From Thalassospira xiamenensis M-5 = DSM 17429 (GTDB lineage: Bacteria > Pseudomonadota > Alphaproteobacteria > Rhodospirillales > Thalassospiraceae), in contig NZ_CP004388.1 of the NCBI RefSeq assembly GCF_000300235.2, positions 4,348,001-4,412,000 on the forward strand: DNA of 64,000 bases, written 5' to 3'. Positions 36,626-61,002 of the stretch are shown piece by piece; position 1 is the stretch's first letter; each line of letters starts with the position of its first letter. Made by a program: the position numbers and the translations under genes. The notes under the pieces were generated by a model. The model saw only the letters and a list, made by a program, of their open reading frames with translations, ran no database searches and was not told the origin of the DNA.

Positions 36626-37834
36626 CTATTTGTCGCTATTACTTAGGGCTCCATGAGCTTTACTCTTCAGGACTTTCGTGTCCGACAATGTCTCAAGCGC
36701 CTCTTCACCGACTTCATCCTGCTCAATCGGCATATCGCCTTCTGGCTCGTCTAGAAACGAGTCATCGGCATCCAGCGCGACCTCGGTCGCGTCGGCAATC
36801 GATTCGAGCTCGTCAGTCAGAAGATCCTCATCTATAAACATCGAATCGAATTCGTTGTCCCCCTCACCTTCGGGAGCAAGCGGATCATCCTCGTCATTAA
36901 CCGGTGCCGACTCGCCCAACCGTCCCTGACTCAAACGTTTGAGAATATCGTCAAGTTGCTCAAGGGTTTCATACCTAACAGAGATTTTACCACCCGCCCC
37001 GTCAAAATCGATATTTACTGCCAACCCCAACATATTGCTAAGATCATGCTCCAGCGCCACTGTATCTGGATCTTTATCGCTTGTGCGTCCCGACGAAGGC
37101 TTCTTCTGGCGCGCGGTTTTACCGCCGTCACTTTTCACCAGTTTCTCGGTCTGGCGAACGTTTAGCCCCTTCTTGACGATCTGGTTTGCCAGCTCGACCG
37201 CGTTATTCGCCCCCAACAGGGCCCGCGCATGACCGGGGCTCAGCACACGATCCGACAACATCTGCTTGATCGGTGCAGGAAGCGTCAATAAACGCAGGCT
37301 GTTCGCAATATGACTGCGGCTTTTGCCAAGCGCCTGAGCCAATGCCTCCTGGGTATGCGAAAAATCGCTCATCAGGCGGCTATAACCTTCGGATTCCTCG
37401 AGTGGCGACAAATCCTGCCTTTGCAGGTTTTCGATCAGGGCAATCTCGGCGGTTTCCCTGTCGTCAAAATCACGTACCAGAACCGGCACTTCGTGCAATT
37501 GCGCCCGCTGTGCAGCTCGCCAGCGACGTTCACCGGCAATGATTTCATAGGTGGTTTCACCTGTAGAGGACGCCCGCACAAGAATCGGCTGAATAATACC
37601 CTTCTGACGAATCGATGCCGCCAGATCGTCAATCGCCTCGTCATCAAAATTGCTGCGCGGCTGGAATGGTGATGGCTTCAGATCGGTGATGGCAATCAGC
37701 TGTGTGGTCCCGCCAGGGCCTGGATGAGCAACAGCCTCATTGCTACCAGCAACCGCTGCACCGACATCATCGTCTTCCTCGCCCAGCAGGGCCGATAGCC
37801 CCCGTCCCAAACCGCGTTTTTTTGCCTCACTCAT
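36626..37834 (-). CDS. parB: chromosome partitioning protein ParB with an acidic C-terminal tail
   Basis: A 402-residue CTP-dependent clamp that loads at parS sites and spreads. The RGLGRGLSALLG motif opens the N-terminus. The ParB-N domain has the CTP-binding GERRWRA (101-107) and ENLQRQDLSPLEE (135-147). The helix-turn-helix (about 160-182) contains EALAQALGKSRSHIANSLRL. The dimerisation domain ends near residue 304. Beyond it lies a roughly 98-residue tail with 33 Asp/Glu and only five Lys/Arg, absent from typical ~290-residue ParBs. Its start overlaps the parA stop by four bases, so the two are one operon. Confidence 0.96.
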   Translation of the reverse strand: MSEAKKRGLGRGLSALLGEEDDDVGAAVAGSNEAVAHPGPGGTTQLIAITDLKPSPFQPRSNFDDEAIDDLAASIRQKGIIQPILVRASSTGETTYEIIAGERRWRAAQRAQLHEVPVLVRDFDDRETAEIALIENLQRQDLSPLEESEGYSRLMSDFSHTQEALAQALGKSRSHIANSLRLLTLPAPIKQMLSDRVLSPGHARALLGANNAVELANQIVKKGLNVRQTEKLVKSDGGKTARQKKPSSGRTSDKDPDTVALEHDLSNMLGLAVNIDFDGAGGKISVRYETLEQLDDILKRLSQGRLGESAPVNDEDDPLAPEGEGDNEFDSMFIDEDLLTDELESIADATEVALDADDSFLDEPEGDMPIEQDEVGEEALETLSDTKVLKSKAHGALSNSDK

Positions 37835-38655
37835 GCCTTCACCCCTTCGCGTTTCAGAACTTCGCTTGCAAGATTAAGATATGCCCGCGACCCCGGACAT
37901 TTCATATCATAGACAAGCACCGGCGTACCGTGGCTTGGCGCCTCTGATACACGGACATTGCGCGGGATCACCGTGCGATAAACGACATCACCAAAATAGT
38001 CGCGTACGTCATTGGCTACCTGTGCTGACAGGTTGTTACGCTTGTCATACATCGTCAAAACAATGCCCTGAATTTCAAGAGCAGGGTTAAAAGCCTTTTT
38101 CACCCGCTTAATGGTGCGTACCAGATGGCTGATCCCCTCCAGCGCGAAAAACTCGCACTGGAGCGGCACCAGAACCGCATCACTGGCAACCAACGCATTA
38201 AGCGTCAGCAAGCCAAGTGACGGCGGGCAATCGATCAGCACATAATCGACATCATGCGGCAACCGACCGAGCGATTCTTTAAGCTGCATCTCGCGGCGTT
38301 CAAAATCGACAAGCTCTATCTCCGCCCCAGAAAGATCCATACCTGATGGCACAATCGTCAGGCGTGGAATAGCAGTTGCCTTGCGTGCTTCTTCCAGCGT
38401 ATTGCCGTTGATCAGTACGTCATAAGAACTTATCTGGCGCTCAGACGGACGCAGGCCCAAACCGGTGCTTGCGTTACCCTGCGGATCAAGATCAACGATC
38501 AAAACCCGCTGGTTTACAGCCGCCAACGCAGTTGCCAGGTTTATCGTAGTCGTAGTTTTACCAACCCCGCCCTTCTGGTTGGCCACGGCAATGATCCGCG
38601 GCCGGTGACCGGCCTCGGAAGAGATTGAAAGCGGCAAATCAATAACGTCGGTCAC
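37831..38655 (-). CDS. parA: chromosome partitioning ATPase ParA
   Basis: A 274-residue deviant-Walker ATPase that moves ParB-parS complexes. The P-loop is KGGVGKTT (28-35), with the signature lysine K28. DLDPQGNASTGLG and VDYVLIDCPPSLGLLTLNAL complete the active site, and the C-terminal RNVRVSEAPSHGTPVLVYD is typical of chromosomal ParA/Soj. The start codon overlaps the rsmG stop by four bases and its own stop overlaps parB, so rsmG-parA-parB is a compact operon. Confidence 0.97.
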   Translation of the reverse strand: MTDVIDLPLSISSEAGHRPRIIAVANQKGGVGKTTTTINLATALAAVNQRVLIVDLDPQGNASTGLGLRPSERQISSYDVLINGNTLEEARKATAIPRLTIVPSGMDLSGAEIELVDFERREMQLKESLGRLPHDVDYVLIDCPPSLGLLTLNALVASDAVLVPLQCEFFALEGISHLVRTIKRVKKAFNPALEIQGIVLTMYDKRNNLSAQVANDVRDYFGDVVYRTVIPRNVRVSEAPSHGTPVLVYDMKCPGSRAYLNLASEVLKREGVKA

Positions 38656-39287
38656 CGGTCAACTCCTTGCAAAATCATCACCACGCCTTCCGGATCAACC
38701 AGGCTGGCATGGGTGGTTACAGTGAATACCCAACCGACTGCACGTGCATCGGCCAGCTCTTCCTCAAAGGCACGTCCTTTTAGCAACACATAATGCCCGC
38801 CCGGTTTAAGATGCCGCTGCCCAAGCTCCAGAAGCTTTGGCAATGGCGCAAATGCGCGGGCTGTAATCACGTCGGCTTCACGCGCGTTGGCGGCTTCAAT
38901 ACGCTCGCGGGCAATTTCGATCTGGCCCAACACCCCACAAACCCGCGCTGCTTCCAGCAGAAACACGGTTTTCTTGGTGTTTGATTCCATTAAAATCACG
39001 TTATTCGCACCCAAAATCGCCAAAACGATCCCTGGGAACCCTGCCCCGGAACCGAAATCGACAATTTTGCCGCCACGGACAACGTCTTCCACATACGGCC
39101 AAAGCTGCGCAGAATCCTGTAAATGACGTGTCCAGACGTCATCAGCCGTGCTGGCACCAACGATATTGATCCTTGGCTGCCATTTGACAACAAGGTCAGC
39201 ATAAAGGCCAAGACGGTCCAATGTTTCACGTGAAACATTCAAATCGGTCTCAAACCATGTTTTTACGGGTTCTGAAATGGATTGCAT
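38652..39287 (-). CDS. rsmG: 16S rRNA (guanine-527-N7)-methyltransferase
   Basis: A 211-residue SAM-dependent methyltransferase (also called GidB) that modifies G527 of 16S rRNA. The SAM-binding motif GGKIVDFGSGAGFPGIVLA is intact, followed by ESNTKKTVFLLEAARV and ITARAFAPLPKLLELG. The codons for NVSRETL near the N-terminus coincide with a perfect parS site (39222-39237). I chose the ATG at 39287; a TTG at 39341 would add 18 residues, and neither has a good Shine-Dalgarno. It is the first gene of the operon with parA and parB. Confidence 0.95.
   Translation of the reverse strand: MQSISEPVKTWFETDLNVSRETLDRLGLYADLVVKWQPRINIVGASTADDVWTRHLQDSAQLWPYVEDVVRGGKIVDFGSGAGFPGIVLAILGANNVILMESNTKKTVFLLEAARVCGVLGQIEIARERIEAANAREADVITARAFAPLPKLLELGQRHLKPGGHYVLLKGRAFEEELADARAVGWVFTVTTHASLVDPEGVVMILQGVDR
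39222..39237. promoter_or_regulatory. parS site 1, inside rsmG
   Basis: A perfect 16-base parS, TGTTTCACGTGAAACA, extended by one A/T pair on each side. It lies within the rsmG coding region about 1.4 kb from parB and is read as part of the conserved NVSRETL peptide. Confidence 0.96.
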
Positions 39288-39390
39288 GTTCGAGTTATAA
39301 TCCGCGTTAATGATTCGCACCAGACTTGATTTTTTAAGCAAACACGTTTTATCGCGTCGAAATCAATAATTTTTGGGAAAAACACGAAAA

Positions 39391-39406
39391 TGTTTCACGT
39401 GAAACA
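39391..39406. promoter_or_regulatory. parS site 2, upstream of rsmG
   Basis: A perfect TGTTTCACGTGAAACA, about 100 bases upstream of the rsmG start. ParB bound here could also repress the operon. Confidence 0.96.
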
Positions 39407-39538
39407 TTTTACAGACAAGTAAAAGCATCACGCGTGCAAAGCCGGTGGGCCAGAATAAGACCAAGCAGATATTCAGATATTGTATTTAAAGCCCGCGGTG
39501 AATGAAACCCCATCGTCAATGATAAACAGCGGCACATC

Positions 39539-39577
39539 AAAAAAGGGCAGCACACTTATACAAAATGTGCTGCCTTT
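39539..39577 (-). terminator. terminator of mnmG
   Basis: The stem AAAAGGGCAGCACA (one bulged G) / TGTGCTGCCTTT with an 11-base loop is followed by six Ts on the minus strand. It lies about 35 bases after the mnmG stop. Confidence 0.85.
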
Positions 39578-39610
39578 CCGAAATTATGGACAACTCAACG
39601 TAAGTTCCAA

Positions 39611-41509
39611 TCAGGCACTGCGTATCGCCTTATGCTTGTGGCTTTTGATATGCCCAAGCAAGGCGGTCACTGCCGCGGGGGTGACACCCGGAATGCGTGA
39701 TGCAGCACCAATAGTTTCGGGCTGGATTTCTTTCAGTTTCAAACGTATTTCCGCCGAAAGGCTGCCGACGCTATCGAAGTCAAGATCGCGCGGCAGACGC
39801 AACTCTTCATCCCGACGGAAGGCCGCAACATCGGCGGACTGGCGATCCAGATAGCCTTTATATTGCGCATCGATTGAAACCTGTTCTCGGATCGCCGGGG
39901 TAATTTCAGAAAGCTGCGGCCAGACGCGGGTCAAGGTATCGAAATCAATATCCGGATATGCCAGCAAGTCATACGCCGAGCGCCGCACACCATCCTGATT
40001 GATTTTGATGTCATGCTTCGCCAGACCATTCGGGGTTTCGGTCAAATCGGAAACGGTGCGTTTGGCTGTTTCAAGCGAAAGTTTTTTATCACCCCAAACC
40101 TGCTGGCGATGCGATGCCACGCAGCCGATGTCAAGACCACGATCCGTCAGACGCTGGTCAGCATTGTCCGCACGAAGCATCAAACGATACTCAGCGCGTG
40201 AGGTAAACATGCGATAAGGTTCGCGCGTGCCCAGCGTCACCAGATCATCAATCATCACACCGATATAGGCGTCAGCACGATCAAGAACAAATTCGCGCTC
40301 AACCGCCCCTGCTGTGCTTCCGGCGACAAGGGCAGCATTAACACCCGCGACAAGTCCCTGCCCGGCAGCCTCTTCGTAACCGGTCGTGCCATTGATCTGC
40401 CCGGCAAAGAACAGTGCACTGACTTTCTTGGTTTCCAGCGTATGGCGCAGCTCGCGCGGATCAACAAAATCATATTCCACTGCGTAGCCAGGACGGAAAA
40501 TCGCGACCTTCTCGAGACCCGGAATGGTGGCCAGCATCGCAAGCTGAACTTCTTCGGGAAGTGAGGTTGAAATGCCGTTCGGATAAACCGTCGGATCGTC
40601 GAGCCCTTCTGGCTCCAGAAAAATCTGGTGCTGGTTCTTTTCGGCGAAACGCACAACTTTGTCTTCGATGGACGGACAATAACGCGGGCCACTGCTTTTG
40701 ATCTGGCCACTATACATCGGAGCCCGATGCAGGTTTGCACGGATGATTTCGTGCGTCGCCTCAGTTGTCCAAGTCATGTGACACGGGATTTGCGGTACGG
40801 TGATTTCTTGGGTCAGGAAGGAAAACGGATCGGGCGGATTGTCACCCGGCTGTTCTTGAAGACTGGCCCAATCGATCGTTCGGCCATCAAGCCGTGCCGG
40901 GGTGCCGGTTTTCAAACGCCCCAAACGGAATTCGAATTTTTCCAAAGTTTCCGAAAGACCAAGTGCTGGCGCATCACCGATACGCCCGGCCGGAGTGGTT
41001 TTTTCGCCAATGTGAATAAGACCACGCAGGAATGTTCCCGTTGTCAGAACCACCGCACCGGCATCATATTCGCGCCCGTCTTCGGTGATCACACCGGTCA
41101 CGCGGCTGTCATCGCCCTCGGCAATTTTAAGGTCGTGAACCGCGCCTTCGATGATCGTCAGGTTTTCCTGATTGGCCAGAATATCCTGCACCGCTTCGCG
41201 ATACAGCTTCCGATCAGCCTGCGCGCGTGGGCCGCGCACAGCCGGTCCCTTGGAACGGTTCAGCATTCGGAATTGGATCCCGGCGCGGTCAATCGCACGA
41301 CCCATCACACCGTCAAGCGCGTCGACCTCGCGAACCATATGCCCCTTGCCAAGCCCGCCAATAGCCGGGTTGCAAGACATTTCTCCGATACGATCAGCAC
41401 GGTGTGTGACCAGTGCGGTTTTCGCTCCCATGCGCGCAGCCGCAGCCGCAGCCTCGCACCCGGCATGGCCCCCGCCAACAACAATCACATCAAATCGGTT
41501 ATCCGACAT
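39611..41509 (-). CDS. mnmG: tRNA uridine-5-carboxymethylaminomethyl modification enzyme MnmG (GidA)
   Basis: A 632-residue FAD enzyme that, with MnmE, modifies U34 of certain tRNAs. The dinucleotide fold [20 protein letters not shown] is at residues 9-28. The signature [24 protein letters not shown] and the later [18 protein letters not shown] are intact, and the C-terminal helical domain binds MnmE. GAGGA precedes the ATG. It is transcribed in the same direction as mnmE, which ends 146 bases upstream with a parS site between them. Confidence 0.97.
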
Positions 41510-41625
41510 CGAATTCCTCGTTGAATTCCTTGACTACGCCAAGCCATGACATCTGCTCAATGCAACACAGCTTGCGAGTCTTATTCAGGTCTTAATTCAA
41601 AACCACGTGTCATCGAAATGGCCGA

Positions 41626-41641
41626 TGTTTCACGTGAAACA
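41626..41641. promoter_or_regulatory. parS site 3, between mnmE and mnmG
   Basis: A perfect TGTTTCACGTGAAACA, 14 bases beyond the mnmE stop and about 115 bases upstream of the mnmG start. Confidence 0.96.
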
Positions 41642-41654
41642 ATTTCTGATAATC

Positions 41655-43064
41655 TTATTTGCCGATACAGAAGTCGCCGAAGATAATATCAAGCAGGTCT
41701 TCCACATCGACGCGTCCGGTGATTTTACCGATTTCACGCACGGCAAGGCGAACATCCTCGGCCGCCAATTCGGCAATATCGGTCTGCAATCCGCGATCCA
41801 GATGATCACTGGCACGCTCAAGTGCCTGGCGGTGCCGCAGCCGTGTCAGGGGAACTGGTCCCGCAAAATCGAGCCCTTCTTTTACGCGAGTCTCCAGCAG
41901 TTGCAAGAGGCTTTCCATCCCCTGCCCGGTCATGGCCGATATGGGCAAAACGGGCAGCTCAAGCCGATCCCCTATTGCCGATTTTCCAGACCAGACTGTC
42001 GGGATATCGCCAACATCCACACCATCCACCTTATTGACCAGAAGGATCGTATTGGCATCAATCAGGCGCGCAGCCTCTGCGTCGATGTGGGGCCAGTCGG
42101 AACGATCCACCACAACAAGCCGCAAATCCGCATCCTCCGCGCGGGCGGTTGCACGGCGAACACCCTCGGTTTCGATCACATCGCCACTTTCGCGAAGGCC
42201 CGCAGTATCCACCATGGTGACGGGAAAACCACCAAGATCAAGATGGACTTCGATCATATCGCGCGTGGTTCCAGCGATCTCGGACACAATCGCCGCCTCA
42301 CGCCTTGCCAGCCGGTTCAGAAGGCTTGATTTACCGGCATTAGGCGCACCGAGAATCACGATCTGGAAACCTTCGCGCAACCGTTCGCCGCGCCGGTTGT
42401 CGGCGAGATGTTTATCCATCTCGCCGTGAACGGATGACAAATCACCACGCACCACCGGCACAATACCACCAGGCAAATCTTCGTCCGGAAAATCGATATC
42501 CGCCTCGATGTAGGCCAATGCCTTCATTAAACGCGCGCGCCAGTTTTCGTAAAGGGCGCCCAATTCGCCTGCCATCTGGCGCACGGCCTGCCTGCGTTGG
42601 GCCGCAGTTTCGGCATCAATCAGATCGGCAATGCCCTCGGCCGCGGTCAGGTCCATTTTGCCATTTTCGAAGGCACGTCTGGTATATTCCCCCGGTTCGG
42701 CGATACGCAGGCCCGGTCGAGCGGCCAAGCAATCAAGAACACCGTCGATTACCGCACGCCCGCCATGAGTATGAAGCTCGACGACATCCTCGCCTGTAAA
42801 GCTGGCCGGACCTGCAAAATAGATCGCTACCGCATCATCAAGTCGCTCGTTCGTTTTCGGATCATGGATCGGCGCATAGATCGCATGACGTGGTTTTGGC
42901 AGGCTGTCGCGGCCCAGAAGCGCGCACAATGTCGCCCCAGCCATTGGCCCGGATAGCCGGATAACCGCCACCCCGGCCCGCCCAGCGCCGCTGGAAAGGG
43001 CAAATATGGTGTCTGTCTGGCCCACTCGGATCGGGGTTCCACTGTCGGTTACGTTAATCGTCAT
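41655..43064 (-). CDS. mnmE: tRNA modification GTPase MnmE (TrmE)
   Basis: A 469-residue GTPase partner of MnmG. The tetrahydrofolate-binding N-terminal domain (TIFALSSGAGRAGVAVIRLSG; SFTGEDVVELHTHGG) is followed by a helical domain interrupted by the G domain: G1 GAPNAGKSS, G2 AGTTRD, G3 DTAG, G4 NKVD. The essential C-terminal CIGK is present (FGDFCIGK). The G4-to-G5 region is slightly short but complete. No strong ribosome-binding site is visible before the ATG at 43064. Confidence 0.97.
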   Translation of the reverse strand: MTINVTDSGTPIRVGQTDTIFALSSGAGRAGVAVIRLSGPMAGATLCALLGRDSLPKPRHAIYAPIHDPKTNERLDDAVAIYFAGPASFTGEDVVELHTHGGRAVIDGVLDCLAARPGLRIAEPGEYTRRAFENGKMDLTAAEGIADLIDAETAAQRRQAVRQMAGELGALYENWRARLMKALAYIEADIDFPDEDLPGGIVPVVRGDLSSVHGEMDKHLADNRRGERLREGFQIVILGAPNAGKSSLLNRLARREAAIVSEIAGTTRDMIEVHLDLGGFPVTMVDTAGLRESGDVIETEGVRRATARAEDADLRLVVVDRSDWPHIDAEAARLIDANTILLVNKVDGVDVGDIPTVWSGKSAIGDRLELPVLPISAMTGQGMESLLQLLETRVKEGLDFAGPVPLTRLRHRQALERASDHLDRGLQTDIAELAAEDVRLAVREIGKITGRVDVEDLLDIIFGDFCIGK

Positions 43065-43384
43065 CCGTTCTGCTATCCGTCACGCCATCTGAAGAAAAAT
43101 GTTGCTGGCTGTCCATATCGGTCAGCATTCCGCGAAGGTCAACATATAGCTGCAATCACAAACGGGGCTTTAAGGCTGCACAAGATAGCTGAAAGCGGCA
43201 TATCATCAGCTTTCTGACCACCAAACAATCCTCGCGGAAACCGGTTTCCAGTTTGATTGACAGATCTTTGGAAACGGCACCAACCTGTCACCGTTCTCGT
43301 TGCCGGAAAACACAAAACGACCCCTGTCGGAGCCGTTTGAAGTGATTGTCCTAATGATGATGCCGCGCATCGCGCCTTACCGGT
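43065..43384. other. intergenic region upstream of mnmE
   Basis: About 320 bases. It contains the ferredoxin terminator (43316-43337) and presumably the mnmE promoter. No gene or further repeat is seen. Confidence 0.5.
43316..43337 (-). terminator. terminator after the ferredoxin gene
   Basis: On the minus strand, the stem AACGGCTCC / GGGGTCGTT (two G-T wobbles, GACA loop) is followed by TTTGTGTTTT. It lies about 48 bases past the ferredoxin stop. Confidence 0.7.
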
Positions 43385-43714
43385 TTATTGATCCGGGCTT
43401 AGGCGCAGCCGTTCAACCACCTTTCCCCCGACCAGATGGTCATTAAGGATGGTATCAATATCTTCGATCGTCTCGTAACGATACCAAGTGCCTTCGGGAT
43501 AGATAACCATCACCGGCCCCAGTTCGCAGCGATCAAGACATCCAGCGGTATTGATACGAGTCATCGGCAGACCTAGTTCCTTGGCGCGAACCTTCATGTA
43601 ATTTCGAAGCTTCATAGCACCCTTGGAATTGCAGCATCCGCGTTCGTGCGTCGCGGGGCGCTCGTTCTGGCACACGAAAACATGCGCCTGATAAAAATGT
43701 GCCTCGGTCGTCAA
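43385..43714 (-). CDS. thioredoxin-like 2Fe-2S ferredoxin
   Basis: A 109-residue protein of the (2Fe-2S) ferredoxin family with a thioredoxin fold. Cluster ligand candidates are Cys15 (FVCQNERP), Cys27/28 (RGCCNSKG), Cys59 and Cys63 (AGCLDRCELGP). The HVFVCxNER start and the GPVMVIYPEGTWY segment are characteristic. Members carry electrons, but the partner is unknown here. It lies five bases downstream of the DUF6489 gene on the same strand, likely cotranscribed. Confidence 0.9.
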   Translation of the reverse strand: MTTEAHFYQAHVFVCQNERPATHERGCCNSKGAMKLRNYMKVRAKELGLPMTRINTAGCLDRCELGPVMVIYPEGTWYRYETIEDIDTILNDHLVGGKVVERLRLSPDQ

Positions 43715-43719
43715 GCTAG

Positions 43720-43980
43720 TCAGTCCTTGGTGTTCTTGCCAGTGGTGTTTCCGGCAGCGTTAAACTGGCTCCAGAAGGCTTTCTGAAGCTGTTCCCAGTT
43801 CTGCATGCCCTGCGGCAGCCAGGTATTGAGCATGGTTTCGGGATCCATCGCCGCAAGATTAGCTTTCATCCGGTCCTCGATATCTTTCATCAAGGCCTGC
43901 TGCATAGGCTGCACATCGGGCAGACCAAAAAAGGTGCGCAGTTCTTCCGGCGTGCAATCAATATCCACGGAAACTTTCAT
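43720..43980 (-). CDS. DUF6489-like small protein
   Basis: An 86-residue acidic protein beginning MKVSVDIDCTPEELRTFFGLPDVQPMQQAL, which matches my memory of DUF6489 proteins of alphaproteobacteria. It then has an amphipathic helix (MLNTWLPQGMQNWEQLQKAFWSQF) and a polar tail. A GAGGAGA ribosome-binding run precedes the ATG. Function unknown; the short gap to the ferredoxin gene suggests one transcript. Confidence 0.75.
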   Translation of the reverse strand: MKVSVDIDCTPEELRTFFGLPDVQPMQQALMKDIEDRMKANLAAMDPETMLNTWLPQGMQNWEQLQKAFWSQFNAAGNTTGKNTKD

Positions 43981-44273
43981 CGCCCTGATCTCCTCTGTTT
44001 GATCTTCTGCTTTTTATTGGGTCCATTATGGACGCCCGTGCGAAGTTCTCAATCACTATCGACCTCAGAGCACTTCCAATCAGTTAAAAGCCGATAAAAT
44101 CGCAATATATTGCTAATCCAATCCCTTTACCCCCCTTGTCTTTCGCTTCAGGGGCTTTACCCTTACATCCATAGAATGAATGTCAGTAATGGGATGGAAC
44201 ACTTCCCTTCCCGCAAACCATAAAAAGCCCGCCACCTTCACAGGAAATCCGGACGGGCACAGGATACGACGCC

Positions 44274-46325
44274 ATGAAACTTGCGCAGAACAATCTTGGT
44301 TCGGAAACCAGCCCCTATCTTTTGCAGCACCGTGACAATCCGGTGCATTGGCAACCCTGGAGTACCGAGGTTCTTGCCGCGGCCAAGGCGGCAAACAAGC
44401 CTGTTCTGCTGTCGGTTGGCTATGCGGCGTGTCACTGGTGCCATGTTATGGCACATGAAAGTTTCGAGGACGATGGTATCGCGGCACTGATGAACGAGCT
44501 GTTTGTGAATATTAAGCTCGACCGCGAGGAACGCCCCGATCTTGATAGTGTCTATCAGAATGCGCTGGCATTGCTGGGTCAGCAGGGCGGATGGCCGTTG
44601 ACCATGTTCCTGACGCCGGATGGCGAACCGTTCTGGGGTGGGACCTATTTCCCCAAGGAGGCCCGGTATGGCCGCCCGGGATTTGGCGATGTTTTGAAGT
44701 CGGTTTCAGAAATCTATACCCAACAGCCCGATAACATCCGCCATAACGTTGCACAGATCGGTCAGGCGCTGATTAAAATGAATAGCGGTGCAACCGGGTC
44801 GATGCCGTCGCTCGCGATGATTGATCAGTGCGGTCATGGCTGCTTACAGATCATGGACGGCGAAAATGGCGGCACCAATGGTGCGCCAAAATTCCCGCAA
44901 CCAAGCATTCTGGCCCTTATATGGCGTGTCGGAGTTCGCACCAACGATACCGATCTTAAACGCATCGTCCGCCACAGCCTTGATCGCATGTGCCAGGGCG
45001 GGATTTATGACCATGTCGGTGGCGGTTTTGCCCGTTATGCCGTCGATGACCAATGGCTGGTGCCGCATTTTGAAAAGATGCTGTATGATAATGCGCAGCT
45101 GATTGATCTTCTGTGTGATGTCTGGCGTGAAACCGGCAACCCGCTTTATGAAGCCCGCATTTCCGAAACCATCGACTGGATACTGCGCGATATGCGAGTC
45201 CCCGGCGGAGCCTTTGCCGCCAGCCTTGATGCCGACAGCGAGGGTGTAGAAGGCAAGTTCTATGTCTGGGACGAAGCCGAAATTAACGCCATTCTTGGCA
45301 ATGATGCCGCCCTGTTCAAGGATATCTATGACGTCAGTCCCTCGGGCAACTGGGAACATAAAAATATCCTGAACCGCACGCAATCGGGCCTTGGCCTTGC
45401 GGACCGAACGACGGAAAAGAAACTTTCGGAAACACGGACAAAGCTTTTGGCAGTGCGCAACAAGCGCATCTGGCCGGGATGGGATGACAAGGCTCTGACC
45501 GACTGGAACGCTATGACCATCGCAGCTTTGGCTGAAGCCGCAATGGTGTTCAAGCGCGCAGACTGGCTTGATTATGCAAAGCTTGCCTATAATTTTGTGA
45601 TCAACAGCCTGATGACTGGCGAAAGCAATGACCGGCGCTTCCTGCATAGTTATCGCAATGGAAAGGCACAGCATGCCGGGATGCTCGAAGATTACGCGCA
45701 CATGATCCGCGCGGCTTTGCGGCTTTATGAATGCTTTGGCGAGGATGCATACCTTCGCGAAGCCACCGAATGGTGCGAAGCAGTCGAAAACCTGTTTGCC
45801 GACACCAAAGGTGGTTATTTCCAATCGGCATCTGATGCCGATGATCTGGTTGTGCGCCAGAAACCGCATATGGATAATGCGGTTCCGGCTGGGAATTCGG
45901 TCATGGCACAAAATCTGGCACGGCTTTATGCCCTGACCGGCGATACCAAATATCGCGACCGGGCGGAAATCACCATTGCCGCCTTTGCCGGGCGATTAAA
46001 CGAACAATTTCCCAACATGCCTGGCCTTCTTCTGGCAGCCGAAATGCTGCAAAATCCGCTTCAAATCGTGCTGATCGCCAAGGAACGCAGCCAGATGTAC
46101 ATGGAAATGCGGCGTGCCATCTTTGCCGCCTATCTGCCAAACCGTGCGATCACCATTCTGGCCGACACCGATGCCCTGCCCGACCTGCACCCAGCCAAGG
46201 GAAAAACCGCGATTGACGGACATGAGACAGCCTATGTCTGTCAGGGGTCGGTCTGTTCCGCCCCGGTTACTAATGTCGCCGACCTTGCCAAGCTGCTTGC
46301 CAATTTACCAAATAAGTCGACATAA
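44274..46325 (+). CDS. YyaL/SPATA20-like thioredoxin-domain protein (DUF255)
   Basis: A 683-residue protein. The N-terminal DUF255 thioredoxin-like domain (residues 1-165) has the conserved SPYLLQHRDNPVHW start and YAACHWCHVMAHESFED, with the CHWC redox-type motif; LDREERPDLDSVYQ and GGWPLTMFLTPDGEPFWGGTYFP follow. The C-terminal part is an alpha/alpha barrel resembling glycosidases or N-acylglucosamine epimerases (GGGFARYAVDDQWLVPHFEKMLYDNAQL). Function is not established. A CAGGA sequence lies about nine bases before the ATG. Confidence 0.9.
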   Translation: MKLAQNNLGSETSPYLLQHRDNPVHWQPWSTEVLAAAKAANKPVLLSVGYAACHWCHVMAHESFEDDGIAALMNELFVNIKLDREERPDLDSVYQNALALLGQQGGWPLTMFLTPDGEPFWGGTYFPKEARYGRPGFGDVLKSVSEIYTQQPDNIRHNVAQIGQALIKMNSGATGSMPSLAMIDQCGHGCLQIMDGENGGTNGAPKFPQPSILALIWRVGVRTNDTDLKRIVRHSLDRMCQGGIYDHVGGGFARYAVDDQWLVPHFEKMLYDNAQLIDLLCDVWRETGNPLYEARISETIDWILRDMRVPGGAFAASLDADSEGVEGKFYVWDEAEINAILGNDAALFKDIYDVSPSGNWEHKNILNRTQSGLGLADRTTEKKLSETRTKLLAVRNKRIWPGWDDKALTDWNAMTIAALAEAAMVFKRADWLDYAKLAYNFVINSLMTGESNDRRFLHSYRNGKAQHAGMLEDYAHMIRAALRLYECFGEDAYLREATEWCEAVENLFADTKGGYFQSASDADDLVVRQKPHMDNAVPAGNSVMAQNLARLYALTGDTKYRDRAEITIAAFAGRLNEQFPNMPGLLLAAEMLQNPLQIVLIAKERSQMYMEMRRAIFAAYLPNRAITILADTDALPDLHPAKGKTAIDGHETAYVCQGSVCSAPVTNVADLAKLLANLPNKST

Positions 46326-46360
46326 GAAGAGCCGCTGATACGATGCCTGCTCAACTCGGA

Positions 46361-46376
46361 TGTTTCACGTGAAACA
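46361..46376. promoter_or_regulatory. parS site 4, within a 26-base palindrome
   Basis: A perfect TGTTTCACGTGAAACA between the YyaL-like gene and the repair gene. The palindrome continues outwards for five more pairs (TCGGA/TCCGA), giving perfect dyad symmetry from 46356 to 46381. It lies about 8.5 kb from parB. Confidence 0.96.
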
Positions 46377-58473: not shown

Positions 58474-59298
58474 TTAATGACCGCGCCGGTCATACATGGT
58501 CGATAGAATGATCGCCGCAGTTTCTTCGATGGATCGTCTGGTGACGTTGATAATCTTCCAGCTGCGATCAGTAAAATAACGGCGTGCCTGATGGACTTCG
58601 TTTCGCACCGCAACCGGGTCAACGTAATCTCCACCCTCGCCGCGCTCGATCTGGCGCAGTCGATTTTTGCGGATCGATACCAGTTGATCAACATCCTTGA
58701 TCAGGCCAACAACCAGCGGATTTTTCAGCTTGTCGAGTTCCGGGGGCAACGGGCACCCCGGCACAAACGGCACATTGGCGGTTTTGATGCCACGATTTGC
58801 CAGATAGACGGAGGTCGGTGTCTTTGACGTACGCGAAACTCCGACAATAACGACATCGGCTTCTTCAAGATCCCATGTCGATTGCCCATCATCATGAGAC
58901 AGCGTGTAATCAATGGCTTCGATCCGGTTGAAATAATCTTCGTCCATTTTATGAAGGGCGCCGGTGCGGCCGCGTGATTGCTGTCCCAGATAACCGGCCA
59001 TCATGGTAATGGTATTATCAAGCACATGGCTGTGCGGTACCTGCAAACGGCGACAGCCTTCTTCGAGCTTGCGGCGAATATCCATATCGAAAACCGTATA
59101 AAGCACGATCCCGGGATTGCGTTCGATATCGGCAAGCACACGGGCAAGCTGCGCATCGGTTCGGATCAGCGACCAGACATGTTCATGGGCCCGAACATCG
59201 GGAAATTGTGCAATGCAGGCACGTGCCACCCCGTCAACGGTTTCACCGGTCGAGTCCGATACCAGATGGAGGTGAAAGATATTGTCGTCATCAATCAT
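58474..59298 (-). CDS. ppsR: pyruvate, phosphate/water dikinase regulatory protein (DUF299)
   Basis: A protein of about 274 residues. It is a bifunctional ADP-dependent kinase/Pi-dependent pyrophosphorylase that switches phosphoenolpyruvate synthase or PPDK on and off. The conserved FHLHLVSDSTGETVDGVARA start, LPPELDKLKNPLVVGLIKDVDQL and the P-loop-like VIVGVSRTSKTPTSVYLANRG are clear. I chose the ATG at 59298; one at 59322 would add eight residues, and neither has a clear Shine-Dalgarno. It is transcribed away from the origin region. Confidence 0.93.
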   Translation of the reverse strand: MIDDDNIFHLHLVSDSTGETVDGVARACIAQFPDVRAHEHVWSLIRTDAQLARVLADIERNPGIVLYTVFDMDIRRKLEEGCRRLQVPHSHVLDNTITMMAGYLGQQSRGRTGALHKMDEDYFNRIEAIDYTLSHDDGQSTWDLEEADVVIVGVSRTSKTPTSVYLANRGIKTANVPFVPGCPLPPELDKLKNPLVVGLIKDVDQLVSIRKNRLRQIERGEGGDYVDPVAVRNEVHQARRYFTDRSWKIINVTRRSIEETAAIILSTMYDRRGH

Positions 59299-59424
59299 TG
59301 CAGACCCGCAATTTTCCAGCATTTCATATTACTTAACCGAAACCCGGTGTTCGATATTTCGATCATCTGCCATATGTCAGGGCACTGCAATCCCAACCAT
59401 AAATTAAACTGACGGAGTCGGGCC

Positions 59425-59443
59425 TGTGGATAATTGTGGATAA
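59425..59443 (-). promoter_or_regulatory. tandem DnaA boxes in oriC
   Basis: Two copies of TGTGGATAA (59425-59433 and 59435-59443) sit in direct repeat with one base between them. They are bracketed by the inverted repeat GGAGTCG (59414-59420) and CGACTCC (59450-59456), each arm carrying a GANTC site. Confidence 0.9.
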
Positions 59444-59465
59444 CGGGGGCGACTCCGGCCAAATT

Positions 59466-59474
59466 TTTTCCACA
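59466..59474 (+). promoter_or_regulatory. DnaA box in oriC
   Basis: TTTTCCACA matches the relaxed DnaA-box consensus TTWTNCACA. Confidence 0.75.
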
Positions 59475-59703
59475 GATTTTATCCTGCACGTCATACAAAA
59501 TTTCTCAATGCATTCGTCCCACGGGGGATAAGCGGAAAATTTTTTCCCTAATAGCAGGGATAACAGGGCGAAAACCAGATTAATCCCCGCTATCCCCATT
59601 ATTCAAAAACGGCTTTTCCCAAGCTCATCCTTGGGAGTCGTTCGGATTCGTCCCCAGTTTTCCCCAAGACCGTTTGAGATGAATCATTTTTCCCGAGTCG
59701 CAA

Positions 59704-59745
59704 TGTGGATAAACTGTGCACCAAATTTGATCCCCGTTATCCACA
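59704..59745. promoter_or_regulatory. pair of inverted DnaA boxes in oriC
   Basis: TGTGGATAA (59704-59712) and TTATCCACA (59737-59745) face each other 24 bases apart, just before the AT-rich stretch that could be the unwinding element. Confidence 0.85.
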
Positions 59746-59964
59746 GGTAACCACTAACAAACAACATCCTTTTTTATTAAAGAAGGTTTTGTTAGAGACA
59801 CGGTGGAAAAACGGCTTGGAAAGGCTTCAGGACACAATTAACGGGTCAGGAACCGGGAACCAGACATAAGCGCCAGATCATCGTGTCTGACAAAAGGATC
59901 GGGACTATCATACCCGGAAACAGCCCGTTGAAAGGCAGTTACCGGCAGTCAAACAGGAAACGTC

Positions 59965-61002
59965 ATGCCAAAACCAAACAAGACCTTTTTGCGCGCCCTT
60001 GCCGGTGAAACATTGCCGGTACCTCCCATCTGGCTCATGCGCCAGGCGGGTCGCTATCTTCCGGAATATCGCGCAACACGGTCCGAAGCAGGTTCGTTCC
60101 TCGATCTTTGCTATAATCCTGATCTTGCGTGTGAAGTTACCTTGCAGCCGTTGCGGCGCTATGACTTCGATGCGGCTATTCTGTTCTCCGATATCCTCGT
60201 CATACCACAGGCACTTGGACAGCATTTGGCTTTCAAGCAAGGTGAAGGCCCGCAGCTTGAAGCCATTAGAGATGCTTCGGGACTTGGCATCCTAAATGTT
60301 GATCATATCCATGACACACTGGGGCCGGTTTACGAGACGGTTGCAAAGCTCTCTGCATCCATTCCGTCTCATACCTCTCTCATTGGTTTTGCAGGGGCAC
60401 CTTGGACGGTTGCGACCTATATGGTTGAAGGAAAGGGCAGCAAGGATTTTGCCAATATTCGCCGCTTTGCTTATGGCGATCCAGACGGGTTTTCACGTCT
60501 GATAGAAATCCTGGTCGAAGCCACCACGCAATATCTGCTAAAACAGGTTGAAGCAGGTGCGGAATGCATTCAGCTTTTTGAAACCTGGGGCGGAGTACTG
60601 TCGGAAAACGGGTTTGAACGCTGGGTGATCGAACCGACCAAAAAGATTGTCGCAAATCTTAAGGCGGTACATCCGGATTTGCCTGTGATTGGCTTCCCAA
60701 GGGGTGCTGGCTTGCATCTGATCGACTTCAAACAGCAGACTGGTGTCGATGCCGTTGGTCTTGATAGTGGTGTTCCTTTGAAATGGGTTGCGAAAAAACT
60801 TCAGCCATTGGGCCCGGTGCAGGGTAATCTTGATCCGATGTATCTGATTACCGGTGGGGACGAAATGATTGATGAAACCCGCCGTATCCTAGATGTGCTG
60901 CGTGATGGTCCGTTCATTTTCAATCTTGGACACGGGATTACCCCGGAAACATCGCCGGAAAATGTCGGCAAGCTGGTCGATTTTATTCGAAATTATCGCT
61001 GA
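59965..61002 (+). CDS. hemE: uroporphyrinogen decarboxylase
   Basis: A 345-residue enzyme that decarboxylates uroporphyrinogen III to coproporphyrinogen III in haem synthesis. The signature [17 protein letters not shown] is at about residues 22-38, with [30 protein letters not shown] and [17 protein letters not shown] following. AGGAAAC precedes the ATG. It begins next to the putative origin and is followed by hemH and hemJ on the same strand. Confidence 0.97.

Follow-up and report, generated by a model that had tools for sequence, protein, structure and literature searches.

In Caulobacter crescentus, the chromosomal origin Cori lies between hemE and the COG1806 gene CC0001 and contains an AT-rich stretch, five DnaA boxes, one IHF site and five CtrA sites (PMC1914354). 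The predicted origin of Rickettsia prowazekii has the same two boundary genes, and the hemE-COG1806 position is regarded as the most likely ancestral state; a Wolbachia strain without CtrA sites has also been reported (PMC1914354). The DnaA sites of Cori fall into two classes, moderate G-boxes and very weak W-boxes that need cooperation (PMC4468827). Several GANTC motifs are found in the origin of Caulobacter and its close relatives, and GANTC is in general enriched over 1.5-fold in intergenic regions (PMC3973325). Loss of CtrA is harmless to growth in two Rhodospirillales (PMC8116508).

The window analysed here is the whole 64,000-nucleotide stretch C1:4348001-4412000 of Thalassospira xiamenensis M-5, whose genome consists of two contigs, C1 of 4,576,570 bp and C2 of 192,380 bp. 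Copying of the chromosome almost certainly starts in its ppsR-hemE gap, which by its sequence would be an ordinary hemE-COG1806 oriC. For this comparison NF003742/ppsR is taken by us to be equivalent to COG1806/DUF299. Conservation was scored over 29 rows, namely the window row and 28 same-genus genomes. The features are as follows.

59299..59964 (C1:4407299-4407964), no strand: intergenic region between ppsR and hemE, almost certainly bearing oriC, from the box cluster, the skew sign change and a layout found in 28/28 same-genus genomes
58474..59298, minus: ppsR (PEP synthase/PPDK regulator), left boundary gene (NF003742, 326 bits, cut-off 225)
59965..61002, plus: hemE, right boundary gene (TIGR01464, 410 bits, cut-off 303)
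59413..59825, no strand: conserved core of the origin (84% identical on average to the window row, against 46% for the rest of the gap; core ends chosen from the match pieces of relatives)
59425..59433, minus: DnaA box TTATCCACA, first of a head-to-tail pair (TTWTNCACA kept in 22/29 rows)
59435..59443, minus: DnaA box TTATCCACA, second of that pair, 10 bp on (kept in 28/29 rows)
59466..59474, plus: DnaA box TTTTCCACA (kept in 23/29 rows)
59704..59712, minus: DnaA box TTATCCACA (kept in 29/29 rows)
59737..59745, plus: DnaA box TTATCCACA adjoining the AT-rich stretch (kept in 29/29 rows, exact in 28)
59525..59694, both strands: six TTWTCCC, candidate weak DnaA sites between the strong box groups (59525 minus, 59542 plus, 59557 minus, 59614 plus, 59658 plus, 59688 plus)
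59415..59699, no strand: six GANTC, the CcrM target (59415, 59451, 59635, 59645, 59681, 59695), from motif count and row conservation
59753..59794, no strand: AT-rich stretch, probable unwinding element, from A+T content and row conservation
39223..46375 (C1:4387223-4394405 or closer), no strand: four parS, exact 14-bp GTTTCACGTGAAAC (39223, 39392, 41627, 46362)
36626-37834, minus: parB (Pfam ParB_N, HTH_ParB, ParB_C)
37831-38655, minus: parA (Pfam AAA_31)

A first-pass annotation had already proposed this gap as the origin, with hemE as neighbour and divergent flanks, in the arrangement known from Caulobacter and Rickettsia. The flanks are as described, with ppsR on the minus strand, hemE on the plus strand and above the TIGR01464 cut-off, and the same divergent layout in all 28 same-genus genomes, where the gap measures 529-693 bp. 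The parallel is borne out as well, since origins with hemE-COG1806 boundaries are already published for both organisms (PMC1914354). Against the narrower PpsR equivalog model NF049928, ppsR scores 153 bits, under the cut-off of 350. Its full ORF covers 58474-59322 on the minus strand and ends at 59298 if an internal ATG is the start. This later start, implied by the earlier left boundary of 59299, is favoured because 59299-59322 is poorly conserved in the 29-row comparison and because 23 of the 28 same-genus BLAST matches of ppsR begin at residue 6 or later. The description of the gap as gene-free needs a small correction: among ORFs of at least 120 aa, it is reached only by the first codons of the ppsR ORF and by one 144-aa TTG ORF (58978-59412, plus), which is antisense to ppsR and extends into the gap. 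The A+T content of the gap is above the window average, with a G+C content of 46% for 59323-59964 against 53% for the window. No Rfam family was matched at the gathering threshold anywhere in the window.

The five DnaA-box matches claimed earlier are all present, four of them TTATCCACA and one TTTTCCACA. A background sample of 527,904 bases from this genome contains 7 TTWTCCACA; at that density the 666-bp gap should hold 0.009, and it holds 5 (Poisson P about 4e-13). Exact TTATCCACA is found 27 times in the whole 4.77-Mb genome, against 21 times for its reversed control; four of the 27 lie within 321 bp in the gap, the sole such cluster on the 4.58-Mb C1. Nowhere else on C1 are two exact TTATCCACA found within 1 kb. 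A box cluster that is unique on the chromosome is one of the features by which the hemE-COG1806 kind of origin was judged.

The only other pairs of exact TTATCCACA within 1 kb are two on the small replicon C2. One is an inverted pair (C2:115534 minus and 115554 plus) immediately upstream of a gene for a Rep3-type initiator (PF21205, PF01051); boxes and gene fall within C2:114501-115562 and together probably represent a plasmid origin that also uses DnaA. The other pair (C2:166711 and 166910) is 199 bp apart in the same orientation. Near the plasmid initiator (L118:5315-15906, where the boxes and the initiator gene fall within L118:9501-10562), there are a 995-aa ORF, two ORF starts that look lipoprotein-like by eye, and a T2SSE-family ATPase (PF00437), a gene order that seems to us reminiscent of Dot/Icm-type conjugation systems.

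Between and beside the boxes, the gap carries further conserved elements. The AT-rich stretch that the first-pass annotation placed beside the last boxes reaches 77.5% A+T over the 40 bp of 59755-59794, a value attained by only 0.1% of the 40-bp stretches of the window. Within it and next to the last box, AACATCCTTTTT (59763-59774) is invariant across 29/29 rows. The DnaA-trio motif consists of consecutive YTW triplets in phase; past the last box, at most 3 of these follow one another, inside a T tract. TTWTCCC occurs six times in the gap against 0.19 expected, and the sites are kept, in coordinate order, in 21, 5, 28, 28, 28 and 23 of 29 rows. Judged by motif and position, this row may consist of weak DnaA sites.

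GANTC also occurs six times, against 0.82 expected; nine of 4,561 background 666-bp windows contain six, and none contains more. Row conservation is 29, 29, 28, 28, 20 and 29 of 29 in coordinate order, so that five of the six sites are near-invariant within the genus. The genome has a single RAMA-domain match, in a 366-aa CcrM-type DNA methylase whose adjoining ORF resembles, we assume, mutY. A GcrA homologue is present in the genome. The CtrA consensus, TTAA-N7-TTAA, has 0 matches in the gap, and the IHF consensus, WATCAANNNNTTR, has none that are exact or with one mismatch.

The likeness to Cori extends to the boundary genes, the number of boxes and the AT-rich stretch (PMC1914354), to the GANTC motifs in the origin (PMC3973325), and possibly to the presence of two classes of DnaA sites, one stronger and one very weak (PMC4468827). 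The TTWTCCC sites may belong to the W-box class, a likeness that is a lead drawn from the description of the class and not from the W-box sequence (PMC4468827). Two differences stand against these similarities. The boxes of Cori are G-boxes with a T-to-G change (PMC4468827), whereas those of the gap are typical TTATCCACA; and the five CtrA sites and one IHF site of Cori (PMC1914354) have no counterparts by consensus here. The gap therefore cannot be called a CtrA-gated Cori, and CtrA sites are no requirement of the wider kind. Their absence fits the harmless loss of CtrA in the two Rhodospirillales (PMC8116508). The predicted origin of R. prowazekii was compared by its boundary genes, which are the same (PMC1914354).

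GC skew had been named by the first-pass annotation as the check that could overturn its proposal. It changes sign at the gap, and 36 of 40 sampled stretches (528,570 bases, about 11% of the genome) fit an origin there: of 17 stretches on the arm that leaves the gap, passes base 1 and reaches 2.09 Mb, 15 are positive, and of 23 on the other arm, 21 are negative. In a gap-free 152-kb scan in 4-kb blocks (4300001-4452000), the skew is negative in 26 of the 27 blocks as far as the gap, its own block included (the exception is +0.003), and positive in 10 of the 11 blocks that follow (the exception is -0.022). The cumulative minimum within the window, at 60381, overshoots the gap by 417 bp, which we count against the oriC reading.

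Strand-biased octamers locate the opposite end of the chromosome. AGGGCAGGG, searched genome-wide, has 74 sites on C1, of which 71 are oriented as expected if replication runs from 4.407 Mb to a terminus at 2.103-2.160 Mb; the misfits are at 437074, 4145477 and 4457921. This strand switch brackets the antipode of the gap at 2.119 Mb, so the skew sign change, scored on sampled stretches, is paired with a terminus opposite. The octamer GGGCAGGG is strongly enriched (511 sites, the first 100 of them listed by position, against 121 for the reversed control) and elsewhere on each arm points nearly all one way. Right of the origin, in C1:4412001-4452000, it is mixed, with four of six sites the wrong way and normal GC skew, and the AGGGCAGGG at 4457921 is on the minus strand. 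This close to the origin, the octamer's strand bias is too noisy to be informative. A search for dif with a loose XerCD-type pattern, allowing at most 2 mismatches, gave nothing usable above the reversed control (7 forward and 8 reverse matches against 6 and 5).

The partition locus was expected some 10-20 kb from the origin. The four parS, the only exact GTTTCACGTGAAAC in the genome, lie 12.9-20.1 kb left of the gap; they adjoin parAB (36626-38655), which is 20.6-22.7 kb from it.

Could the gap be a DnaA-titration site of the datA type, or a minor origin, while replication really starts at another place close by on the right arm? The mixed GGGCAGGG sites in 4412001-4452000 (2 plus, 4 minus) and the minus-strand AGGGCAGGG at 4457921 would agree with this. 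We consider it very improbable, since the skew is positive in 10 of the 11 blocks right of the gap, exact boxes are closely grouped nowhere else on C1, and the core is conserved in the genus. In many bacteria oriC is found beside dnaA, whose Bac_DnaA domain here starts at C1:633, at the record start and about 169 kb from the gap round the circle. An origin there, with the gap reduced to a DnaA-regulated divergent promoter, is just as improbable: there is no exact TTATCCACA from C1:4545336 to the record end or before C1:231571, just 2 scattered TTWTNCACA occur in 28,570 bases round dnaA, the skew keeps its sign on its two sides (+0.069 and +0.037), and its antipode at 2.289 Mb falls inside the minus-strand octamer arm.

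An origin in the ppsR-hemE gap is also consistent with the genomes of relatives. A 1.7-kb query was matched by 57 of 60 relatives, including 28/28 same-genus genomes; in 31 same-order genomes, the DNA match to the gap itself was nil or short. One genome (G027) was left out of the polarity and box-cluster comparisons. In the same-genus genome G012, a single contig of about 4.7 Mb, the gap is at 0.31 Mb and the AGGGCAGGG switch at 2.60-2.65 Mb, with the opposite point at about 2.66 Mb as estimated from rounded sizes; 75 of 77 sites fit. In G005, also of the genus, the gap is at 1.55 Mb and the far switch, among the matches listed, at 3.79-3.82 Mb, by estimate roughly opposite. Among those same listed matches, three wrong-strand AGGGCAGGG lie right of the gap (1.575, 1.600 and 2.058 Mb), so the octamer places the G005 origin only loosely. 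Exact boxes are clustered in the gap in both genomes (four in G005, three in G012).

The box-cluster picture is weaker in two same-order genomes. Next to the hemE match of G053 are 2 boxes spaced 114 bp, but this genome has a further pair, spaced 353 bp, at another place; G044 has one exact TTATCCACA in the gap, of 71 in the genome. The latter genome also contains 15 exact DnaA boxes in one orientation, spaced exactly 549 bp (G044:C1:395661-403355), an array that is most likely a long tandem repeat.

A wider comparison covered 80 named alphaproteobacterial contigs, drawn from at least 593 relatives. In 33 of the 80, hemE is preceded by a divergent ppsR. The gaps of 32 of these (282-596 bp) were analysed, leaving out L048 with its gap of 3,728 bp. 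The other 47 loci, which show no ppsR match upstream (up to 4 kb fetched; one ends 10 bases upstream of hemE), are in no gap count. Three of them have at least 3 boxes in the last 800 bp. Many of the 47 presumably belong to Rhodobacterales, judging from the names in their titles.

With no motif assumed, the most enriched hexamers of the 32 gaps are pieces of GTTATCCACAGG and TATCCCC, including TCCACA, ATCCAC, CCACAG, CACAGG, TTATCC, TATCCC and ATCCCC. Shuffled gaps give on average 0.4 TTWTCCACA, 8.2 TTWTCCC and 13.1 TCCCCA, where the real gaps contain 18, 56 and 55. The wider group thus appears, from its sequences, to have the strong-box pieces and the CCC variant in common. The divergent ppsR-hemE layout and the GTTATCCACAGG/TATCCCC pieces are alike here and in these gaps, but 21 of the 32 are without an exact TTWTCCACA. 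TTWTCCC reaches 16 times its flank density; the control TTWTGGG also reaches 5 times, so part of this enrichment is due to composition. CTACTA and ACTACT are enriched as well (z 6.8 and 6.2; 9 and 7 of 32 loci) and may represent DnaA-trio elements for unwinding in the origins of other alphaproteobacteria.

GANTC in the 32 gaps is at 3.5 times its flank density and above the flanks in 27 loci, with seven rearranged palindromes at 0.5-1.5 times. Its count of 89 against 60.3 in 60 dinucleotide shuffles (sd 6.5) is an excess of about 1.5-fold, which does not exceed the enrichment of over 1.5-fold reported for intergenic regions at large (PMC3973325), and GANTC was therefore rejected as a general hallmark of such origins. 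The conservation of GANTC inside the genus stands.

As a whole, the box cluster, the skew sign change, the antipodal octamer switch, the parS positions and the conservation in the genus are best explained by a chromosomal oriC with DnaA loading on strong boxes first, spreading, and AT-rich melting (probability about 0.96). The CcrM-type methylase, the GcrA homologue and the enriched GTTATCCACAGG and TATCCCC pieces of the named gaps also speak for it. Points that count against it are the noisy octamer near this origin and in G005, the dif pattern at control level, the 21 named gaps without an exact TTWTCCACA, and the boxes of G044 and G053. We infer DnaA occupancy, the melting site, firing and any effect of methylation as follows. 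DnaA would first bind the few strong TTATCCACA boxes, the head-to-tail pair 59425/59435 and the pair 59704/59737. It would then spread along the weaker TTWTCC(C/A) sites between them, and the AT-rich stretch adjoining the 59737 box would melt, where two forks would start. Fresh GANTC copies would be half-methylated until CcrM acts, which may mark an origin that has just fired. ParB at the parS 13-20 kb away would segregate the copies.

The picture of this published kind of origin is refined here by a core conserved in the genus, with its row of TTWTCCC and its near-invariant GANTC, and by the absence of CtrA sites. One tentative and rather doubtful extension is that early-branching alphaproteobacteria have a CtrA-free plan in common, with strong TTATCCACA, a conserved weak TTWTCCC row and near-invariant CcrM sites whose methylation, in place of CtrA, limits re-initiation, and that Caulobacter is a later variant in which the strong boxes were weakened and CtrA was added. 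Since the origin almost certainly lies about 169 kb from dnaA and the record start, gene-dosage and replichore work in the genus should be centred on the ppsR-hemE gap. The map of strong boxes, TTWTCCC and GANTC without CtrA sites offers a concrete case for how early-branching alphaproteobacteria limit initiation.
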